From Candidatus Latescibacterota bacterium (lineage in GTDB: Bacteria; Latescibacterota; UBA2968): 42,458 nucleotides of DNA. Each line of letters starts with the position of its first letter. Position 1 is the stretch's first letter. The notes beneath the pieces are model-generated. The model was not told the DNA's origin and did no database searches. It saw only the letters and a program-made list of their open reading frames with translations. Location of the stretch: positions 1 through 42,458 of the forward strand of contig JAJEHL010000012.1 in the NCBI GenBank assembly GCA_022823725.1. The letters run 5' to 3'. The translations under genes and the position numbers were made by a program. Below are positions 1 through 8,904 of the stretch, in pieces.

Positions 1-33
1 TCAAAAAAATTTACTAATATTTTATTTGATAGA

Positions 34-65
34 CTGGATTGCGGCTTACACCCTGCCGCAATGAC
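34..65 (-). repeat. Dispersed palindromic repeat, copy 1
   Basis: Read on the minus strand this is GTCATTGCGGC, a 10-nt loop, then GCCGCAATCCAG. The arms ATTGCGGC and GCCGCAAT pair perfectly. It is the same element as the six other copies in the window but in opposite orientation, and it uses the ATTGCGGC/GCCGCAAT arm variant instead of ATCGCGGC/GCCGCGAT. Confidence 0.85.
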
Positions 66-80
66 AACCCCCGTTCGTCA

Positions 81-103
81 CGCCTGCATGTTTTAAGCAG
101 GCG
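81..103. repeat. Short hairpin next to dispersed repeat
   Basis: CGCCTGC at 81-87 pairs with GCAGGCG at 97-103 across a 9-nt loop. It lies between the palindromic repeat at 34-65 and the 28-bp repeat at 109-136, so it looks like part of one composite repetitive element. No T run follows on the plus strand. Confidence 0.5.
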
Positions 104-108
104 TCCAG

Positions 109-136
109 TGGTTTAAGTCAATAAACTTATTTGACA
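109..136 (-). repeat. 28-bp repeat, inverted copy of 38059-38086
   Basis: The reverse complement of this segment matches 38059-38086 at 27 of 28 positions. In both places it sits beside a copy of the 32-bp palindromic repeat, so the two form a larger composite element found in opposite orientation near each end of the window. Its end includes TTGACA (131-136), which could serve as a -35 box for the merC-like gene, with only a weak -10 (TTAGAA near 155-160). Confidence 0.7.
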
Positions 137-177
137 GACCATTGAGTGTATTTGTTAGAAATAAAAGGAGATAATAA

Positions 178-576
178 ATGGCGCGTTTGAGCTATCAAAC
201 CGCAGGTGACAAGATCGCCATTGTTCTTTCAACGATGTGTGCGATCCATTGTTTAACACTGCCTGTTGCACTTATTGCGTTTCCGTTATTGGCAACTACA
301 TTTGTCGGCGGTGAACATTTTCATGGGCTTTTGGTGTGGCTGATTCTGCCCACCAGCATTCTTGCTCTTGGGTTGGGATGTCGCCGCCATAAAGACCAGT
401 TTGTCATTGGTTTTGGTATTCTGGGGTTGTCCCTTATCGTCGTAATGGTTGTGGTTGGCCATGATCTTTTTGGGGAAATAGGGGAACGGGTGGGGACCGT
501 TTTAGGGTCGGGATTTTTGATCTCAGGCCATATTCGGAATCATCATTTATGTCGCAGAGATGATTGTGAAAAATAG
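178..576 (+). CDS. MerC-domain membrane protein
   Basis: A 132-residue inner-membrane protein with four hydrophobic segments (about 12-38, 46-64, 72-94 and 100-118). The N-terminal DKIAIVLSTMCAIHC and C-terminal GHIRNHHLCR patterns are those of the MerC family, which takes its name from mercury transport proteins; a Cys and a His lie together in the first membrane segment (CAIHC). In many diderms MerC-like genes sit next to TonB receptors for zinc, so a role in divalent metal handling is more likely here than mercury resistance: no merA or merR-type mercury gene is nearby. The start is supported by AAGGAGA at 164-170. The next gene follows after 28 bases. Confidence 0.8.
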   Translation: MARLSYQTAGDKIAIVLSTMCAIHCLTLPVALIAFPLLATTFVGGEHFHGLLVWLILPTSILALGLGCRRHKDQFVIGFGILGLSLIVVMVVVGHDLFGEIGERVGTVLGSGFLISGHIRNHHLCRRDDCEK

Positions 577-604
577 GATAAACACGCGAAAGGAGACGCA
601 ATAT

Positions 605-1057
605 ATGGAGAAACAAAATCCAATGCGGCTCAAAGTGATAAGTGTTATAGTGTTTGCGTTCTTTGTTTCTTGCCATGGAGAAAATAAAGAAGATGCACAC
701 TTCTTGCGGCAGGCGGTGGAGATTCACAAGGCGATGATGGAAATTGAAGCGCAATTTGAGAACCAACTGGATAGCCTGAAGTCATTTTCACATCATGCTG
801 TGGAAATACGCGATAGTCTTCAGGTTATCGAAAAAGACTTTGAATTGTGGGAAAAAAATGTGGTTGAAGTGCCGGGAGATGACTCGGCAGAGGCCCATGA
901 TCACGGTCATGAACACCATCACAAAAAAGAAAATCTACAGGTGACGCCCGAACAAATGGTCGAGATCCAGAAAGAGCTAAAATCAAATCTCGAAAAATTG
1001 CTTTTGCGATTGCAATCGATTAGACAATTGCAGGCGCGTTCCTCAGAGGACGAATAG
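605..1057 (+). CDS. His-rich lipoprotein
   Basis: A 150-residue predicted lipoprotein. An N-terminal hydrophobic stretch ends in a lipobox-like FFVSC (Cys about residue 20), followed by a long, charged, probably helical body. A histidine-rich patch AHDHGHEHHHKKE in the middle would bind Zn, Ni or Cu ions. The start at 605 is chosen over an upstream in-frame ATG at 560 because AAGGAGA lies just before it and 560 overlaps the MerC-like gene. The family is not recognised; position between a MerC-like protein and TonB receptors suggests a periplasmic metal-binding accessory protein. A second copy of only its last 20 codons survives at 4392-4451. Confidence 0.75.
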   Translation: MEKQNPMRLKVISVIVFAFFVSCHGENKEDAHFLRQAVEIHKAMMEIEAQFENQLDSLKSFSHHAVEIRDSLQVIEKDFELWEKNVVEVPGDDSAEAHDHGHEHHHKKENLQVTPEQMVEIQKELKSNLEKLLLRLQSIRQLQARSSEDE

Positions 1058-1102
1058 ACGTACTGGTAACCAACTACTCGAGATAATCCCATATTATTAA
1101 GA

Positions 1103-1402
1103 ATGAGTCTCTACACCAGACACCCGCTCGTTAAAACGCTGATCGTCATATTGCTCGTCGTCGCATTTGCCCTTGTCTTTGGGCATGCAGTTGACCATGT
1201 TGAACATGACACCCATTGCGTTGAACATGACACCCATTGCCTCGTTTGCCATTGGGTTTATAGCTTTAGTGGTCTTATCAGTGCTGTATTGATTTCTGGT
1301 GTATTATACGCCTGTTATTTTTTCGCTCTGCCGCCCCCCACATTTTTATCCCACCAGTTTTTCCTTTCACCTCAGAGCCGATCCCCCCCAGTAGTCTTCT
1401 GA
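1103..1402 (+). CDS. Small His/Cys-rich membrane protein, copy A
   Basis: A 99-residue protein with two hydrophobic segments (about 10-29 and 52-74) separated by a metal-ligand-rich loop: HAVDHVEHDTHC, a second VEHDTHC, then LVCHWVY. It is a paralogue of the 90-residue protein at 4568-4840, which has only one VDHDIHC unit. The extra seven residues come from a perfect 21-bp tandem duplication. No known family is assigned; the His/Cys loop and the neighbouring receptor point to metal binding at the membrane. The start lacks a strong ribosome binding site. Confidence 0.65.
   Translation: MSLYTRHPLVKTLIVILLVVAFALVFGHAVDHVEHDTHCVEHDTHCLVCHWVYSFSGLISAVLISGVLYACYFFALPPPTFLSHQFFLSPQSRSPPVVF
1199..1240 (+). 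repeat. 21-bp tandem repeat inside the gene at 1103
   Basis: GTTGAACATGACACCCATTG followed by C is present twice head to tail (1199-1219 and 1220-1240) with no mismatch. It adds one VEHDTHC unit in frame. The paralogue at 4568 has a single diverged unit, so the duplication is recent and specific to this copy. Confidence 0.95.
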
Positions 1403-1531
1403 ATACTGAATATCTTAATAATAAAGTTTGCATTATTTTTTTGCGTTTTTGTGCCTTTTTGTGCGGGCCTGAAATAAGAGGGGCTCCCTCTGCGTGTTCT
1501 CTGCCCGTGCGGGCTTATTCAGGAGACTATC

Positions 1532-2020
1532 ATGTTTTTTAGAAGAAACTCGTTTCAAGGCATTTTTGCCGCTGTGGCAGTTCTGGCTTTGTTTGTGATC
1601 GGTTGTGGTAGTGACGATCCAATGGCTCACCAGGAAGAGCATTTCGAACCCGAGGGGCTGGTTATCATAGATTCGGGCAATCGTTTTTTTCGCTATTATC
1701 GAGGACAGATTGATGCCAGCGGTGGTCGGGCAGATCATCTCGATGCCCCCCTCAATGAGGAAACACCGCACTGGAGCATCCGTTTTCTGGATGACCATGG
1801 CGATGAGATTCCCCCGCCAGATGATCCCGATTTCAAATTTACATGGGCGATTGCCGATAACACGGTTTTGGAAGTTGTTCAGGATGCCGACGATGTCGGC
1901 AAGTTTGATTTTCACCTGCGTGGTCTCAAGGCAGGCGAAACTACGATTGAGCTCCAGGTCACGCACGGCGATCATGTAGATTTTCGCACCATTCCCATTC
2001 CCGTGCATGTCGGAGAGTAG
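1532..2020 (+). CDS. Lipoprotein paired with TonB receptor, copy A
   Basis: A 162-residue predicted lipoprotein: signal segment about residues 9-24, lipobox VIGC, then GSDDP. The mature N terminus has HQEEHFEPEGLV, an acidic/His stretch that could bind metal, followed by a compact region rich in beta-strand-like sequence and ending in FRTIPIPVHV. GGAG just upstream of the ATG supports the start. The same gene is repeated at 4988. Position directly before a ZnuD-like receptor suggests a periplasmic or surface metal-binding partner of the receptor. No enzyme motif is visible. Confidence 0.7.
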   Translation: MFFRRNSFQGIFAAVAVLALFVIGCGSDDPMAHQEEHFEPEGLVIIDSGNRFFRYYRGQIDASGGRADHLDAPLNEETPHWSIRFLDDHGDEIPPPDDPDFKFTWAIADNTVLEVVQDADDVGKFDFHLRGLKAGETTIELQVTHGDHVDFRTIPIPVHVGE

Positions 2021-2030
2021 TAACTGCTTT

Positions 2031-2069
2031 GCCCTCACCCGGTCTTTCAGACACAGGGTGAGGGCTTTT
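2031..2069 (+). terminator. Hairpin with T-rich tail before TonB gene A
   Basis: GCCCTCACCC (2031-2040) pairs perfectly with GGGTGAGGGC (2056-2065) and is followed by TTTT. It lies only about 20 bases before the receptor start. A similar but weaker hairpin sits at the same place in the second copy (5488-5528), so partial termination or mRNA processing between lipoprotein and receptor is likely. Confidence 0.75.
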
Positions 2070-2088
2070 GGTTTATTGGAGGTTCATT

Positions 2089-4290
2089 TTGAAATTCACG
2101 ACTTCTATTCTAATTGTTGTGTTCTGCTTTTCCGCGATCAGCGCGTCGGATGGGACGCGTTTGATCGAGGGATATGTTTTTGATCACAAGACCCAACGCA
2201 CAATTGGCAATGTCGATATCAAACTCGATGATGGCGCGGTGGGTACGACAACCGATGAACGGGGCCGTTTTGTTTTGCGTCTGTCGGAGGGCGTTCATCG
2301 TCTGTCTTTTTTTCGTGTCGGCTATGGATTGGTGAGTCGGGAAGTAAGGGTCTCAGGTGCTAAATTGCCCATTTTGTACGTCGAAATAATTGCCCGGGAA
2401 ATTGTTATGGATACCATTGATGTGGTCGCTAAAAGTGTGGAAACGCGTTTTGAAGCATTGCACGAAGCCACGGGCGTGCTTTCGGGGGATGAACTTCAGA
2501 AGAAATACAGCCTCACACTTGCCGAGACGATGAAAAACGAGATTGGCGTCGCCATCCGCAGCATGGGGCCTGCACCTGCTCGCCCTGTTATACGCGGCCT
2601 CAGTGGCGATCGCGTGCAGATCAATATAGACGGTATCGAGTCCCATGATCTTTCCGCTACTTCTGCCGATCACGCGGTTACGCTTGAGCCTTTTAATGCG
2701 GAACGCCTCGAAATTATCCGGGGACCCCGCACGCTGCTTCACACGGCATCGGCCATTGGCGGGGTTATCAATGTGGTGAAACAGAAGATTCCGGAAGACC
2801 ATCCGCAGCGCGTTTTTGGCAGTGTTGGTGCTTATGGCGAGACGGCCAATCGGGGATATCTCTCTGCCGCTGGAATCACAGTGCCTGTGGGACCTCTCGC
2901 GCTGTATGCTGAAACGACGTACCGCAATACCCGGGATGTGCAAACACCCATTGGCAGGCTCGCCAATACACCTATTGACACGCGTACGCATCTGCTCGGT
3001 CTATCATATCCCACTGACCGGGGGTATATCGGTGCTTCTTTTGATCAGTTTGATACGCAGTACGGCATTCCCGGTGGATTTATAGGCGGGCATCCCAATG
3101 GCGTAGATCTGGATATTGATCGCCGGGTATTTGATGGCAAGGCGGCCTTCCATTTTGATCGCGAGGTACTCAGTAGTGTAGAGGTGGATTTGACCAGGAC
3201 CTTCTATCACCACTTCGAGTACGAATCCAGCGGCAGTATTGGGTCCGAGTTTTTGTTCCACGACTATCGCGGCGATCTCAAATTGTTTATGAACACACAG
3301 GGCCAGACGCGAAATACTGTGCTCGCCCTGGGCTTTGGTCATCATAACCTCAAATTGGGGGGGTTTGTTTTTACGCCGCCCACGCGAGAGCAATGCGCTT
3401 CATTAGGTCTTTACCACGAATTTATCTATCGCGACATTGAATTTCAGGCTTCTGCGCGTTATACTTATACCGACTTTGATCCGCGTCCGAGTACAAGGAG
3501 TATTGCGGCTCTCGGTGTAGATCGCACCTTTCACGCATGGTCCGCGGCGATTAGTCCGCTTGTGACCATTACCGACCGGCTAACCGGGGGTTTCAATTTC
3601 AGCCGATCCCAGCGCGTGCCCAGGATTGAAGAGCTTTACAACCATGGGCCGCATCTGGCTGCGTACACTTTTGAGGTGGGCAATATCGATCTCGAGGCCG
3701 AGACGAGCCTGGGCTTTGAGGTCTTTTTTCACTATTTGCAACCGGGGATTGATTTTGTTTTGAGTGGATATTGGAACGAGTTTGATACCTATATTGCCCC
3801 GCGCAATACCGGAGAGATCAATTTTGCCCAACTTCTGCCGATTTATGCTTCCGATGGTGTTGCTGCGCGATTTTTGGGTCTGGAGATGCATCTGGGGTGG
3901 CGTTTGAATACCCGTTTGAATCTGGAATTAAATGGCAGTTATGTGCGCGGCGAGAACAGGGATGAGGATTTGCCTCTGCCCGAGATGCCGCCGCTCAAGT
4001 TTGTTGGAAGTACAACATATCAGCATCCCTATCTTACGGTTGGCGGGACTGCGGAATTTGTCGCAGGACAGGAGCGCGTGGATATATTCGAAGAGCCTAC
4101 GGATGGCTATGCTGTTTTCGGTATCTATGCCCAGCGCGACATTAATACCGATCATACCCGCCATAGTATTATTATTTCTGTTGATAACCTTTTGGATACG
4201 GAATACCGCAACCATCTCTCTCGCATTCGGTCTGTGATGCCCGAAACAGGGCGGAGTATTAAAGTGCATTACAAGATGTTTTTCTTTTAA
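2089..4290 (+). CDS. TonB-dependent receptor, ZnuD-like, copy A
   Basis: A 733-residue outer-membrane receptor, probably for zinc or another metal. Signal peptide about 1-20; carboxypeptidase-regulatory-like beta domain about 25-100 (LIEGYVFD, GTTTDERGRF); plug domain about 120-240 with RPVIRGLSGDRV, SADHAVTLEPF and RLEIIRGPRTLL, which closely resemble ZnuD-family zinc receptors; then a beta-barrel ending in MFFF, as expected for an outer-membrane protein. The start is a TTG at 2089 behind GGAGG (2078-2082). An upstream in-frame TTG at 2068 adds seven residues that the paralogue at 5544 lacks. Substrate is inferred from the family and from the His-rich neighbours; it could also be another divalent metal. 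Confidence 0.85.
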   Translation: MKFTTSILIVVFCFSAISASDGTRLIEGYVFDHKTQRTIGNVDIKLDDGAVGTTTDERGRFVLRLSEGVHRLSFFRVGYGLVSREVRVSGAKLPILYVEIIAREIVMDTIDVVAKSVETRFEALHEATGVLSGDELQKKYSLTLAETMKNEIGVAIRSMGPAPARPVIRGLSGDRVQINIDGIESHDLSATSADHAVTLEPFNAERLEIIRGPRTLLHTASAIGGVINVVKQKIPEDHPQRVFGSVGAYGETANRGYLSAAGITVPVGPLALYAETTYRNTRDVQTPIGRLANTPIDTRTHLLGLSYPTDRGYIGASFDQFDTQYGIPGGFIGGHPNGVDLDIDRRVFDGKAAFHFDREVLSSVEVDLTRTFYHHFEYESSGSIGSEFLFHDYRGDLKLFMNTQGQTRNTVLALGFGHHNLKLGGFVFTPPTREQCASLGLYHEFIYRDIEFQASARYTYTDFDPRPSTRSIAALGVDRTFHAWSAAISPLVTITDRLTGGFNFSRSQRVPRIEELYNHGPHLAAYTFEVGNIDLEAETSLGFEVFFHYLQPGIDFVLSGYWNEFDTYIAPRNTGEINFAQLLPIYASDGVAARFLGLEMHLGWRLNTRLNLELNGSYVRGENRDEDLPLPEMPPLKFVGSTTYQHPYLTVGGTAEFVAGQERVDIFEEPTDGYAVFGIYAQRDINTDHTRHSIIISVDNLLDTEYRNHLSRIRSVMPETGRSIKVHYKMFFF

Positions 4291-4324
4291 TTTAGCGGTC
4301 AGATATGTTGACCCTTTACCTAAC

Positions 4325-4364
4325 GCCCCAGATTAGCAGACTGATCTGGGGCTTGCTCTTTTTT
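4325..4364 (+). terminator. Rho-independent terminator after TonB gene A
   Basis: GCCCCAGAT (4325-4333) pairs with ATCTGGGGC (4344-4352), followed by TTGCTCTTTTTT. The same terminator occurs after the second receptor gene at 7780-7818. Confidence 0.9.
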
Positions 4365-4391
4365 GGGCCAAGTCATATCTTCCGTTTTGGA

Positions 4392-4451
4392 CTCGAAAAA
4401 CTGCTTTTGCGATTGCAATCAATTAGACAACTTTCCTCAAAGGACAAATAG
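4392..4451 (+). pseudogene. 3' remnant of the His-rich lipoprotein gene
   Basis: Twenty codons, starting at a CTC codon, read LEKLLLRLQSIRQL then SSKDK and a stop. They match the last residues of the lipoprotein at 605-1057 (LEKLLLRLQSIRQL, QARSSEDE) apart from a three-codon gap and a few changes. There is no start or 5' part, so this is a non-functional fragment that marks the left edge of the duplicated segment. Confidence 0.85.
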
Positions 4452-4567
4452 ATACACGGGTAGCAAACACATTGTACCATTTCAAGACTTGCAATAAGAT
4501 GTGATATTTTGCATATTTATTAAGAGGTCACAAGGGCCGGTGTGACTGTTAAAGGTACAATATTGAG

Positions 4568-4840
4568 ATGAATCTCAAACATCCACTTATCAAAACACTG
4601 ATCGCCATATTGTTTATTGGCGCGTTTGCCCTTGCCTTTGGGCATGCATTTGACCATGTTGACCATGACATCCATTGCCTCGTTTGCCATTGGGTTTATG
4701 GCTTTAGCGGTCTTATCAGTGCCATCGTTGTTTTTGGTGTATTATACGCCTGTTGTTTTTTCGTTTCACCGAACGTCATATTAGTATCCCACCAGTTTTT
4801 CCTTTCGCCTCAGGGTCGATCCCCTCCAGTAGTTTCCTGA
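4568..4840 (+). CDS. Small His/Cys-rich membrane protein, copy B
   Basis: A 90-residue paralogue of the protein at 1103, with two hydrophobic segments and a shorter ligand loop, HAFDHVDHDIHC followed by LVCHWVY. It has only one of the seven-residue units that copy A carries twice. The C-terminal VSHQFFLSPQ is nearly unchanged between copies. Function unknown; membrane-bound metal binding is inferred from the conserved His and Cys and the context. Confidence 0.65.
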   Translation: MNLKHPLIKTLIAILFIGAFALAFGHAFDHVDHDIHCLVCHWVYGFSGLISAIVVFGVLYACCFFVSPNVILVSHQFFLSPQGRSPPVVS

Positions 4841-4987
4841 ATACTGATTTTTCCATTGCAGTAGTTTGTATTATTTTTCTTTTCTGTATCTTTAAGCCTT
4901 TTTTGCGCGGGCGCAGGCAAGAGGATCTCCCTCTGTGTGTTCTCTACCCGTGTGCTCTGTACAGGTTTTACCATTCAGGAGACTATC

Positions 4988-5479
4988 ATGTTTTTTGCAA
5001 GAAAATCGCTTCAACGCACTTTTGCGGCTGTGGCAGTGCTGGCTCTGTTTGTGATTGGTTGTGGTAGTGATGATCCCATGTCTGAACACGAAGAACATTT
5101 CGAACCCGAGGGTCTGGTTCTCATAGATTCGGGCAATCGGTTTTTCCGCTATTTTGAAGGGCAGATCGATGCCAGCGGCGGTCGGGCAGACCATCTCGAA
5201 GTTCCCAATGGTGGACTGACTGCCAAATGGACCATTATGTTCCTTGACCACGATGGTGACGAAATTGCCCCGCCAGATGATCCAGATGACAGCTTTACAT
5301 GGGAGATTGCCGATGCCACAGTTGTGGAGGTTCATCAGGAGCCTGCAGATGTGGGTAAGTTTGAATTCCAACTGCGCGGCCTCAAGGCAGGTGAGACCAC
5401 GATTGAACTCCAGGTCGCGCATGACGATCATATTGATTTTCGCACGATTCCCATTCCCGTGCGTGTCGTAGATCAGTAA
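4988..5479 (+). CDS. Lipoprotein paired with TonB receptor, copy B
   Basis: A 163-residue predicted lipoprotein and paralogue of the gene at 1532. Signal segment, lipobox VIGC and GSDDP are conserved, followed by SEHEEHFEPEGLV. The start at 4988 is chosen because it lines up with copy A and follows CAGGAGACTATC, whereas an upstream ATG at 4937 is unsupported. The central part differs more from copy A than the signal region does, suggesting relaxed or divergent selection there. Confidence 0.7.
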   Translation: MFFARKSLQRTFAAVAVLALFVIGCGSDDPMSEHEEHFEPEGLVLIDSGNRFFRYFEGQIDASGGRADHLEVPNGGLTAKWTIMFLDHDGDEIAPPDDPDDSFTWEIADATVVEVHQEPADVGKFEFQLRGLKAGETTIELQVAHDDHIDFRTIPIPVRVVDQ

Positions 5480-5487
5480 CTGTCTCG

Positions 5488-5528
5488 CCCTCACCCGGTC
5501 TTTCAAATACAGAGTGAGGGGTTTTTTC
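5488..5528 (+). terminator. Hairpin with T tail before TonB gene B
   Basis: CCCTCAC (5488-5494) pairs with GTGAGGG (5514-5520), followed by GTTTTTTC. It is the counterpart of 2031-2069 but has a shorter perfect stem and a longer T run. It ends about 15 bases before the TTG start of the receptor. Confidence 0.75.
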
Positions 5529-5543
5529 TGATAGAGATACGTT

Positions 5544-7745
5544 TTGAAATTCACGGCTCCTATTCTCTTTTTTGTGTTCTGCTTTTTCGCGATTGGCGCA
5601 TCGGATGAGACGCGTTTGCTCGAGGGATATGTTTTTGATCGCAAAACCCAACGCGCAATCGGCAATGTCGATATCAAACTTGAGGATAGTGCCGTGGGCA
5701 CGACAACCGATGAACGGGGCCGTTTTGTCTTGCATCTGCCGGAGGGCGTTCATCGTCTGTCTTTTTTTCGTGTCGGCTATGGATTGGCGAGTCGGGAAGT
5801 AAGGGTCTCAGGTGGGAAATTGCCGATTCTGTACGTGGAAATGATTGTTCAGGAAATCCTTCTGGATACCATTGATGTGGTAGGGAGAGATGCGGAGACC
5901 CGCTTTGAAGAATTGCACGAAGCCACGGGCGTGCTTTCGGGGGATGAACTTCAGAAGAAGTACAGCCTCACGCTTGCCGAGACGATGAAAAACGAAATTG
6001 GCGTTGCCATCCGCAGCATGGGACCCGCACCTGCTCGCCCTGTTATACGCGGCCTCAGTGGCGACCGCGTGCAGATCAATATAGATGGTATCGAGACACG
6101 AGATTTATCCGCTACTTCTGCTGATCACGCTGTTACTGTCGAGCCTTTTAATGCGGAACGCCTCGAAATTATTCGGGGACCCCGCACGCTGCTTTACACG
6201 GCATCGGCTATTGGTGGGGTTATCAATGTGGTGAAACAGAAGATTCCGGAAGACCATCCGCAGCGCGTTTTTGGCAGTGTTGGTGCTTATGGCGAGACGG
6301 TCAATCGGGGGTATCTCTCAGCCGTTGGGATTACAGTGCCCGTGGGGCCACTCGCGCTTTATGCCGAGACCACGTACCGCAATACCCGTGATGTGCAAAC
6401 GCCTATTGGCAGGCTCGCCAATACACCTATTGACACGCGTACGCATCTGCTTGGTCTGTCATATCCCACTGACCGGGGGTATATCGGTGCTTCTTTTGAT
6501 CAGTTTGATACCCAATACGGCATTCCCGGTGGATTTATAGGCGGGCATCCCAATGGCGTAGATCTGGATATTGATCGCCGAGTGTTTGATGGCAAGGCGG
6601 CATATTATTTTGATCGCGAGGTGTTCAGTAGTGTAGAGATGGATTTGACCAGGACCTTCTATCATCACTTCGAGTACGAATCCAGTGGTAATATTGGGTC
6701 CGAGTTTTTGTTTCACGATTATAGTGGCGATCTCAAATTGTTTATGAACACCCAGGGCCAGACGCGAAATACCGTTCTCGCCCTGGGCTTTGGTCATCAC
6801 AATCTCAAATTGGGGGCGTTTGTTTTTACGCCGCCTACGCGAGAGCTAAGTGCTTCCCTTGGTGTTTACCACGAGTTTACCTATCGGCATATCGAATTTC
6901 AGGCTTCTGCGCGTTATACGTATGCCGACTTTGATCCGCGCCCAAGAACAAAGAGTATTGCGGATCTCGATGTCGATCGCATCTTTCACGCATGGTCCGC
7001 GGCGATTAGTCCGCTTGTAAACATTACCGACCGGATAACAGGTGGTCTAAATCTCAGTCGATCCCAGCGTGTGCCTACGATTGAAGAGCTTTATAACGAT
7101 GGGCCGCATCTGGCTGCGTACACTTTTGAGGTGGGCAATGTCGAGCTCGAGGCCGAAACGAGTCTGGGCTTTGAGGTCTTTTTTCACTATTTGCAACCGG
7201 GTGTCGATTTTGTTTTGAGCGGCTATTGGAATGAGTTTGATACCTATATTGCCCCGCGCAATACCGGAGAGATCAATTTTGCCCAACTTCTGCCGATTTA
7301 TGCTGCCGATGGTGTTGCCGCGCGATTTTTGGGTCTGGAGATGCATCTGGGGTGGCGTTTGAATACCCGTCTGAATCTGGAATTAGACGGTAGTTATGTG
7401 CGCGGCGAGAATAAGGATGAGCAGGTGCCCTTGCCCGAGATGCCGCCGCTCAAGTTTGTTGGAAGTACAACATATCAGCATCCCTATCTTACGGTTGGCG
7501 GGACTGCGGAATTTGTCGCAGGACAGGAGCGCGTGGATATATTCGAAGATTCTACGGATGGCTATGCTGTTTTCGGTATCTATGCCCAGCGCGACATTAA
7601 TACCGATCATACCCGCCATAGTATTATTATTTCTGTTGATAACCTTTTGGATACGGAATACCGCAACCATCTCTCGCGCATTCGGTCCGTGATGCCCGAA
7701 ACAGGACGGAGCCTTAAAGTGCATTACAAGATGTTTTTCTTTTAA
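5544..7745 (+). CDS. TonB-dependent receptor, ZnuD-like, copy B
   Basis: A 733-residue paralogue of the receptor at 2089, of exactly the same length and domain order: signal peptide, carboxypeptidase-regulatory-like domain, plug (RPVIRGLSGDRV, SADHAVTVEPF) and barrel ending in MFFF. It also begins with TTG, but its ribosome binding site is weak (no GGAGG), so it may be made at a lower level. Changes from copy A are scattered in the N-terminal third and the barrel loops, for example around residues 420-480, and nearly absent in the last 100 residues. Two diverged receptors with slightly different ligand loops could widen metal or partner range. Confidence 0.85.
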   Translation: MKFTAPILFFVFCFFAIGASDETRLLEGYVFDRKTQRAIGNVDIKLEDSAVGTTTDERGRFVLHLPEGVHRLSFFRVGYGLASREVRVSGGKLPILYVEMIVQEILLDTIDVVGRDAETRFEELHEATGVLSGDELQKKYSLTLAETMKNEIGVAIRSMGPAPARPVIRGLSGDRVQINIDGIETRDLSATSADHAVTVEPFNAERLEIIRGPRTLLYTASAIGGVINVVKQKIPEDHPQRVFGSVGAYGETVNRGYLSAVGITVPVGPLALYAETTYRNTRDVQTPIGRLANTPIDTRTHLLGLSYPTDRGYIGASFDQFDTQYGIPGGFIGGHPNGVDLDIDRRVFDGKAAYYFDREVFSSVEMDLTRTFYHHFEYESSGNIGSEFLFHDYSGDLKLFMNTQGQTRNTVLALGFGHHNLKLGAFVFTPPTRELSASLGVYHEFTYRHIEFQASARYTYADFDPRPRTKSIADLDVDRIFHAWSAAISPLVNITDRITGGLNLSRSQRVPTIEELYNDGPHLAAYTFEVGNVELEAETSLGFEVFFHYLQPGVDFVLSGYWNEFDTYIAPRNTGEINFAQLLPIYAADGVAARFLGLEMHLGWRLNTRLNLELDGSYVRGENKDEQVPLPEMPPLKFVGSTTYQHPYLTVGGTAEFVAGQERVDIFEDSTDGYAVFGIYAQRDINTDHTRHSIIISVDNLLDTEYRNHLSRIRSVMPETGRSLKVHYKMFFF

Positions 7746-7779
7746 TTTAGTGGTCAGATATGCTGACACTTTACCTAAC

Positions 7780-7818
7780 GCCCCAGATTAGCAGACTGAT
7801 CTGGGGCTTGCTCTTTTT
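7780..7818 (+). terminator. Rho-independent terminator after TonB gene B
   Basis: GCCCCAGAT (7780-7788) pairs with ATCTGGGGC (7799-7807), followed by TTGCTCTTTTT. It is identical in its stem to the terminator at 4325-4364. Confidence 0.9.
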
Positions 7819-7897
7819 GAGGGCAAGCCCTATCTTTCGTTTTGGAAATGATGAAAGAATGCAAATTGTGCGGCTGAACACACAATGGAGGTATGAA

Positions 7898-8164
7898 ATG
7901 GCAACTGATCCCATGTTGGCAGAAATTTTGAATACAACGCGTTCGATGTCAGTTGAGGAGAAGATTCAATTGATTCGGGGTATGACCGATCAAGTGGAGC
8001 ATGATCTTAAAGGTATAAAGAAGGCTCAAAAGAGATCTCTACGAGGTATCTGGAAAGGACTGAATATCACGGATAGAGAAATACGCGAAAGCCGTAAGGA
8101 AATGTGGGGCAATTTTCCTAAAGATGAAAAAATTCAGCAATCGCAAGTAGCAACAATCTGGTAA
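7898..8164 (+). CDS. Orphan antitoxin-like protein
   Basis: An 88-residue protein with MSVEEKIQLIRGMTDQVEHD followed by RSLRGIWKGL and a C-terminal SRKEMWGNFPKDEK. The SLxGxW plus REMWxNFPxxD pattern is typical of small antitoxins that pair with PIN-domain toxins. GGAGG at 7887-7891 fixes the start; an upstream in-frame extension to 7760 only translates the terminator. No PIN gene follows: the next gene is a haem protein 30 bases on. It may be the survivor of a broken toxin-antitoxin pair. Confidence 0.6.
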   Translation: MATDPMLAEILNTTRSMSVEEKIQLIRGMTDQVEHDLKGIKKAQKRSLRGIWKGLNITDREIRESRKEMWGNFPKDEKIQQSQVATIW

Positions 8165-8193: not shown

Positions 8194-8904
8194 ATGCATC
8201 ATCCCACTGAAGCAAAAGAAAAACTCGATATTCTCGAACACGGCGCGCCTGTTGATGGGAAACCGCAGACGAGCGATCGGCGGCTTTACATGCAGTTGCA
8301 GGTTTTTACGGGTGTCGGGGATGTCGGTGTCGTAGCTGAGGCTCTCGATGAAAGCGGTCTCGATGCCGTGCTCTATCTCGATGTGCAGGATCCCTATGGT
8401 ATTGGCATTGTTTTTTTAGCCGAATCGCCGGATTTATTTGTGACTGATATTCGCGCGTTGCTCAATAGCGATCCATTTCTTGCCTTTACACGTCGCCCTG
8501 AACTTACGATGCTCGGTCGCACGTATGCCACGGGTTACGAACCGGATCTCGAATACGCTCTTATTGATCGACCACGCGATAATGTGTTCAATCCCGAATG
8601 GCCCTGGGCGATTTGGTACCCGTTGCGGCGCAATGGGGCTTTTGCTCGTCTCGATCACAGGGAACAGCGCAAAATTTTGATGGAGCACGCTTCTATTGGA
8701 CGCGCTTATGGACGCGAAGATTACGCGCACGATGTTCGCCTGGCCAGCTATGGCCTCGATGTCGATGATAACGATTTTGTCATTGGTTTGATCGGCGCGG
8801 AACTCTATCCGCTCTCTCGCGTTGTGCAGGATATGAGAAAAACCCAGCAAACCGCACTTTATGTCGAGTCGCTGGGTCCTTTTTTTGTGGGAAAGAAAGT
8901 GTGA
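8194..8904 (+). CDS. Chlorite-dismutase-family haem protein
   Basis: A 236-residue protein of the chlorite dismutase/coproheme decarboxylase family. The C-terminal half is diagnostic: WPWAIWYPLRR, then EQRKILMEHASIGRAYG with H165 as the probable proximal haem ligand, DDNDFVIGLIG and ESLGPFFVG at the end. The family includes HemQ (ChdC), which makes haem b from coprohaem, and true chlorite-degrading enzymes. No other haem gene is nearby, so the exact reaction is open. The start at 8194 follows CAGGAG (8181-8186); an in-frame TTG at 8173 is less likely. Confidence 0.8.
   Translation: MHHPTEAKEKLDILEHGAPVDGKPQTSDRRLYMQLQVFTGVGDVGVVAEALDESGLDAVLYLDVQDPYGIGIVFLAESPDLFVTDIRALLNSDPFLAFTRRPELTMLGRTYATGYEPDLEYALIDRPRDNVFNPEWPWAIWYPLRRNGAFARLDHREQRKILMEHASIGRAYGREDYAHDVRLASYGLDVDDNDFVIGLIGAELYPLSRVVQDMRKTQQTALYVESLGPFFVGKKV

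Follow-up and report, generated by a model that had tools for sequence, protein, structure and literature searches.

Close to the start of a contig from a Candidatus Latescibacterota bacterium, a block of genes around a putative metal receptor occurs twice in direct tandem, which raises the question of when the block was duplicated, whether the junction between the copies is the original breakpoint and what has kept the copies alike or apart. The window analysed here is the entire contig (C8, 42,458 nucleotides) and belongs to an assembly of 5.34 Mb in 51 contigs; its nearest named relatives are Latescibacterota MAGs. All units, genes, hairpins and repeats given below with window coordinates are on the forward strand.

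Organisation of the tandem units

Repeat search, global alignment and blastn delimit unit a (989–4391) and unit b (4392–7846) as collinear direct copies. They are 87.4% identical over 3,372 aligned bases, and the global alignment continues as far as a TTTTGGA found at 4391 and again at 7846. The main blastn piece between the units is 3,197 bp long, with 88.3% identity (E = 0). In the repeat search, 1117–2378 and 4576–5833 are collinear direct repeats with a spacing of about 3.44–3.46 kb, and 989–1027 matches 4392–4430 at 95%. Each unit contains, in this order, a gene for a small His/Cys membrane protein, an Ig-like lipoprotein gene, a hairpin, a ZnuD-like TonB-dependent receptor gene and a terminator; the two receptors are 91% identical at the protein level. 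The tandem duplication of a receptor block described in a first-pass annotation of this DNA is thus borne out, with all the elements it named present twice.

These adjacent repeats are beyond chance. The genome is a MAG and the contig begins in a dispersed repeat, as might be expected of an assembly artefact or of a strain mixture merged into one contig; however, two tandem blocks are also present in four other MAG assemblies, making five assemblies of different species, and the sister species G005 shares the joint, with 99% identity. An artefact is therefore unlikely, and such a merger hardly credible.

The receptors and their putative substrate

The genes for receptor a (2089–4290) and receptor b (5544–7745) both have TTG start codons. 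Profile and structure matches, together with alignment, identify the PF07715 plug and the PF00593 beta-barrel, both over the cut-off, preceded by an N-terminal CarboxypepD_reg domain. The top PDB match of receptor b is neisserial ZnuD (4rdr, E=3.4e-39), and the ZnuD profile NF038289 is the top NCBIfam match of both receptors, yet the scores of 229 and 231 bits are far from its curated cut-off of 950. The buried zinc site of ZnuD consists of Asp99, His100, Glu340 and His499 (PMC4557270); these align with Asp194, His195, Glu377 and His522 of the receptors, which are invariant in 31 of 31 homologues (both copies and 29 others). Unlike in ZnuD, the similarity to which is confined to stretches, the His positions of the receptor sequence form no His/Asp-rich clusters in loop 3, and the Latescibacterota receptor adds the CarboxypepD_reg domain and a partner Ig-like lipoprotein. 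The plug of the predicted structure has a mean pLDDT of 65, too uncertain for claims about contacts.

The neighbouring genes also point to zinc. In relatives, the locus is ordered as BtuC-like permease, Fur, ABC ATPase, FtsX permease, DUF3299, MerC, His-rich lipoprotein, one or two blocks, toxin–antitoxin, Cld/HemQ-like gene and SDR genes. Some of these genes have been gained or lost locally: G007, for instance, is without Fur and MerC there, and G004 without MerC and the His-rich lipoprotein. The adjacent ATPase, FtsX-like permease and DUF3299 genes, found at L050 and other loci, correspond to ZrgC, ZrgB and ZrgE of the Zur-regulated zrgABCDE system of Vibrio; in Vibrio parahaemolyticus, zinc limitation raises expression of the genes for these three proteins 75- to 148-fold (PMC9817125). 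Unlike in Vibrio, ZrgA (DUF2796) has no match among the block proteins or the scanned neighbours, and a MerC protein, a His-rich lipoprotein and a ZnuD-like receptor are present instead. In the window, the single-copy gene for the MerC-family membrane protein (178–576; PF03203, E=3.4e-24) is the first of this series. The zrg-like genes and the Fur gene are probably directly upstream, on contig C35, because the 134 bases at the start of the window (1–134) recur at the end of C35. On this contig, the genes for DUF3299 and the FtsX permease and the one Fur-family gene recognised in the genome are arranged as they would be upstream of MerC; its FtsX homologue is 97% identical and is followed by the DUF3299 gene.

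With ZnuD the best match by profile and by solved structure, its four ligands invariant and ZrgC-, ZrgB- and ZrgE-like genes upstream, zinc is the best-supported substrate of the receptors, and the assignment to ZnuD-type zinc import made from the DNA alone gains support from the conserved site residues. Transport of heme or of another metal (copper, nickel or a siderophore) is an unlikely alternative. The TIGR01785 hemin family is the second NCBIfam match, a chlorite-dismutase/HemQ-like gene lies downstream (8194–8904; PF06778, E=2.8e-13) and, in relatives, a BtuC-like ABC permease upstream, but these points are set against the better ZnuD matches, the invariant zinc ligands and the adjoining ZrgBCE-like genes, and ZnuD was itself annotated at first, wrongly, as a receptor for heme (PMC4557270). 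In Caulobacter, too, a single genome encodes at least two zinc TonB receptors, the Zur-regulated ZnuK and ZnuL, which are reported to be apparently functionally redundant (PMC4176598); unlike the copies described here, they are separate genes at different loci and not part of a tandem block with a lipoprotein.

Within the window, no Zur or Fur box was found near either block, and a palindrome scan of the upstream regions gave no motif common to both. The only Fur-like palindrome found is outside the window, in the promoter of the genome's one Fur-family gene; the Fur gene of G002 scores closer to PerR/Fur models than to Zur.

Lipoproteins, small proteins and hairpins

Upstream of the blocks, an open reading frame at 605–1057 encodes a His-rich lipoprotein (HDHGHEHHH) without a Pfam family; the gene is single-copy, with its tail duplicated at 4392–4451. 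The small His/Cys membrane protein a (1103–1402) has invariant H, H, CxxC and W positions and an RSPP tail, and is weakly DUF2946-like; its counterpart b is at 4568–4840. The leader of small gene b (4500–4567) resembles that of an extra small gene at the top of the zrg-like operon in the closed genome G007 (L041:3320-3380), while leader a differs.

Lipoproteins a (1532–2020) and b (4988–5479) share an invariant HxxHxDF motif, and the structure model of the b copy is predicted to be a generic Ig-like sandwich; a sequence search for relatives of solved structure found none. In most outgroups examined, one lipoprotein combines three Ig-like domains, and this tandem-domain form occurs in related genera and families (L053, L054, L055, L045 and L062). 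A derivation of lipoproteins a and b from outgroup domains 2 and 1 was considered and is not supported, as a and b group together; the alternatives, with AU p values of 0.06 and 0.09, are not firmly rejected.

A terminator-like hairpin followed by a T run separates lipoprotein and receptor in unit a (2031–2065); across 13 sequences 95% of the cells are paired, with two covarying pairs. At the equivalent position of unit b (5488–5522) the stem is weakened. Given its conservation, the covarying pairs and the T run, the hairpin may act as an attenuator, lowering receptor expression relative to that of the lipoprotein. Hairpin comparison also places terminators 3' of receptor a (4324–4361) and of receptor b (7779–7816). 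Rfam gave no match in the window, nor in 1–8000 at a relaxed threshold.

Age of the duplication

Eleven genomes of the genus were compared, the genome of the window being G000 and those of G005 and G009 being read from contig ends. Both one-block and two-block states occur among them: two blocks are present in five of the 11 (G000, G002, G005, G006 and G010) and one in G001, G003, G004, G007 and G008. G009, with a only, is cut by the contig end; its receptor gene (L065:5001-5609) skips from residue 160 to residue 540, through an internal deletion or a misassembly.

In the lipoprotein tree, the a copies form one clade (support 99/94) and the b copies another (100/100), the two uniting with 95/83 support to the exclusion of G008; trees of the small gene separate a and b for the most part. 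On flanking-gene trees G007 and G009 are sisters, with b only and a only, respectively, and in two of three such trees G002 (a and b) groups with G004 (b only), groupings that require losses of blocks. On this phylogenetic evidence there has been one duplication before these species arose, with losses since.

The first-pass annotation had proposed that gene dosage or diversification of metal uptake was selected. A recent, dosage-selected duplication within this species, with 4391/4392 as its original breakpoint, would agree with the clean joint, the intact genes and the collinear copies. It is nevertheless very improbable: synonymous divergence between copies a and b is 0.25–0.58, the joint recurs in G005 while other relatives have other pieces there, and, decisively, the a and b lipoproteins are two orthologous clades across the genus, making the duplication older than the species. 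Diversification fares better: it holds for the lipoprotein and the small protein, but support is weak for the receptor, the greater part of which has been homogenised by gene conversion.

The joint between the units

At 4391/4392, TCCGTTTTGGA is joined to CTCGAAAAACTGC, i.e., TTTTGGA to CTCGAAAAAC, with no microhomology left. As first described, sequence following the terminator of unit a meets the end of a His-rich lipoprotein gene; alignment and comparison with relatives identify the latter as a pseudogene remnant of a second copy (4392–4451; 19 codons plus stop), which aligns with the 22 codons plus stop at 989–1057 and has lost three codons.

G005 is the sole relative to share this joint. 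Between the blocks of G002 lies a MerC remnant (MerC codons 72–132); the 30 nt that precede this remnant in G002 recur in G010, followed there by a jump to the tail of the His-rich lipoprotein. In G006 a complete toxin–antitoxin pair and the first approximately 12 codons of the Cld-like gene are found between the blocks, these codons continuing in frame into the gene for the small His/Cys protein (L052). The single b block of G004 retains the His-rich lipoprotein remnant seen at the G000 joint, with the identical 9-nt deletion. As the relatives retain differing MerC or downstream toxin–antitoxin/Cld-like pieces at this point, the segment first duplicated was probably longer, running from MerC to at least the start of the Cld-like gene, and 4391/4392 is probably a secondary deletion scar; its reading as a visible breakpoint is probably wrong.

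The three kinds of joint (G000/G005, G002/G010 and G006) could also be taken to mean that the block was duplicated independently in each lineage, each time with its own breakpoint, and the receptors do cluster partly by genome. This is improbable, as the lipoprotein trees, and largely those of the small gene, unite all a and all b copies, and the clustering of the receptors is explained by conversion. For G000, G002 and G010 the a and b clades make it false; in G006, where the second lipoprotein is a-type, a separate duplication could have taken place.

Gene conversion between the copies

Sites fixed between copies and sites fixed between genomes were counted among G000, G002 and G010. The receptor has 11 copy-specific against 71 genome-specific sites, the lipoprotein 48 against one and the small gene 13 against none; the ratios of lipoprotein and receptor differ with a Fisher p of 7e-24, a nominal value since the sites are linked. 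In G010, tracts of 733 and 533 nt are identical between the copies. Trees of receptor segments reject copy a as one clade in the plug (p 3e-5) and in the C-terminus (p 1e-5), and recover it in the middle of the barrel (alignment positions 1201–1560) with 99/98 support. Copy-specific residues 425, 436, 470, 474, 502 and 504 are within or beside outer loops, as judged by strand counting in a medium-confidence model. These patterns indicate that the receptors have been partly homogenised by gene conversion and the lipoproteins have not. In G006, lipoproteins 1 and 2 are 99.6% identical, suggesting that conversion is able to reach this gene too. In comparisons between orthologues, the lipoproteins and receptors have dN/dS values below 1 in each copy, and each copy therefore appears to be functional. 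A literature search on gene conversion in tandem TonB receptors found no paper combining all these terms.

A tentative explanation, which we regard as possible and not as likely, is that the blocks are co-adapted receptor–lipoprotein pairs with different targets. Conversion would keep the transport core alike, and selection would block it in the lipoprotein, the small protein and the outer-loop barrel residues (about 425–504), leaving each lipoprotein its own matching receptor face.

A proposed history and function of the locus

We consider it quite probable that the locus serves zinc acquisition and that its block of small protein, lipoprotein and ZnuD-like receptor underwent a single tandem duplication in an ancestor within the genus, followed by spacer deletions, block losses and gene conversion. 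The duplication would have occurred in the ancestor of most species of the genus, after G008 had split off, and the copied unit would probably have run from MerC to at least the beginning of the Cld-like gene. Deletion of the redundant genes between the blocks would then have taken a different course in different lineages, giving the 4391/4392 joint in the window genome, and several species would have lost one block entirely. Gene conversion would keep much of the two receptors alike, the lipoproteins, the small proteins and the mid-barrel segment near the predicted outer loops staying copy-specific. Functionally, the surface lipoprotein and the receptor would capture Zn2+ or zinc chelates, and the receptor would pass zinc inward through its D-H-E-H site with energy from TonB; handling in the periplasm and at the inner membrane would fall to the small His/Cys protein, the His-rich lipoprotein, MerC and the ZrgB/C-like ABC pair.

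The tandem duplication in this ZnuD/Zrg-like locus, old and partly homogenised, represents fairly ordinary gene-family evolution, and is informative. The two-block, a-only, b-only and outgroup genomes form a natural series on the ageing of a tandem operon duplication, in which the decay of spacers, the loss of copies and mosaic gene conversion can be followed. The locus also brings a ZnuD-like receptor together with an Ig-like lipoprotein partner and Zrg-like genes in an uncultured phylum, a candidate two-part zinc receptor that can be tested.

Other repeats and rearrangements

The repeat at 1–134 contains two hairpins, is identical at the starts of C8, C35 and C48, and is scattered through the genome in dozens of diverged pieces; it sits between DUF3299 and MerC here, and is absent from this position in G002. 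Downstream of the blocks, an antitoxin-like gene and the final 14 codons of a PIN toxin gene form a fusion (7898–8164). The pair is intact in G005, in G004 and between the blocks of G006; the fusion arose by internal deletion, and other species are at various stages of toxin–antitoxin loss. A collapse of the locus in G003 by crossing over between blocks was considered and dropped, since a terminator-like direct repeat flanking the toxin–antitoxin pair explains the flank equally well. This repeat (L077:932-974; window 7795–7837) lies on both sides of the module in G005 and may be responsible for the recurrent deletion of the module.
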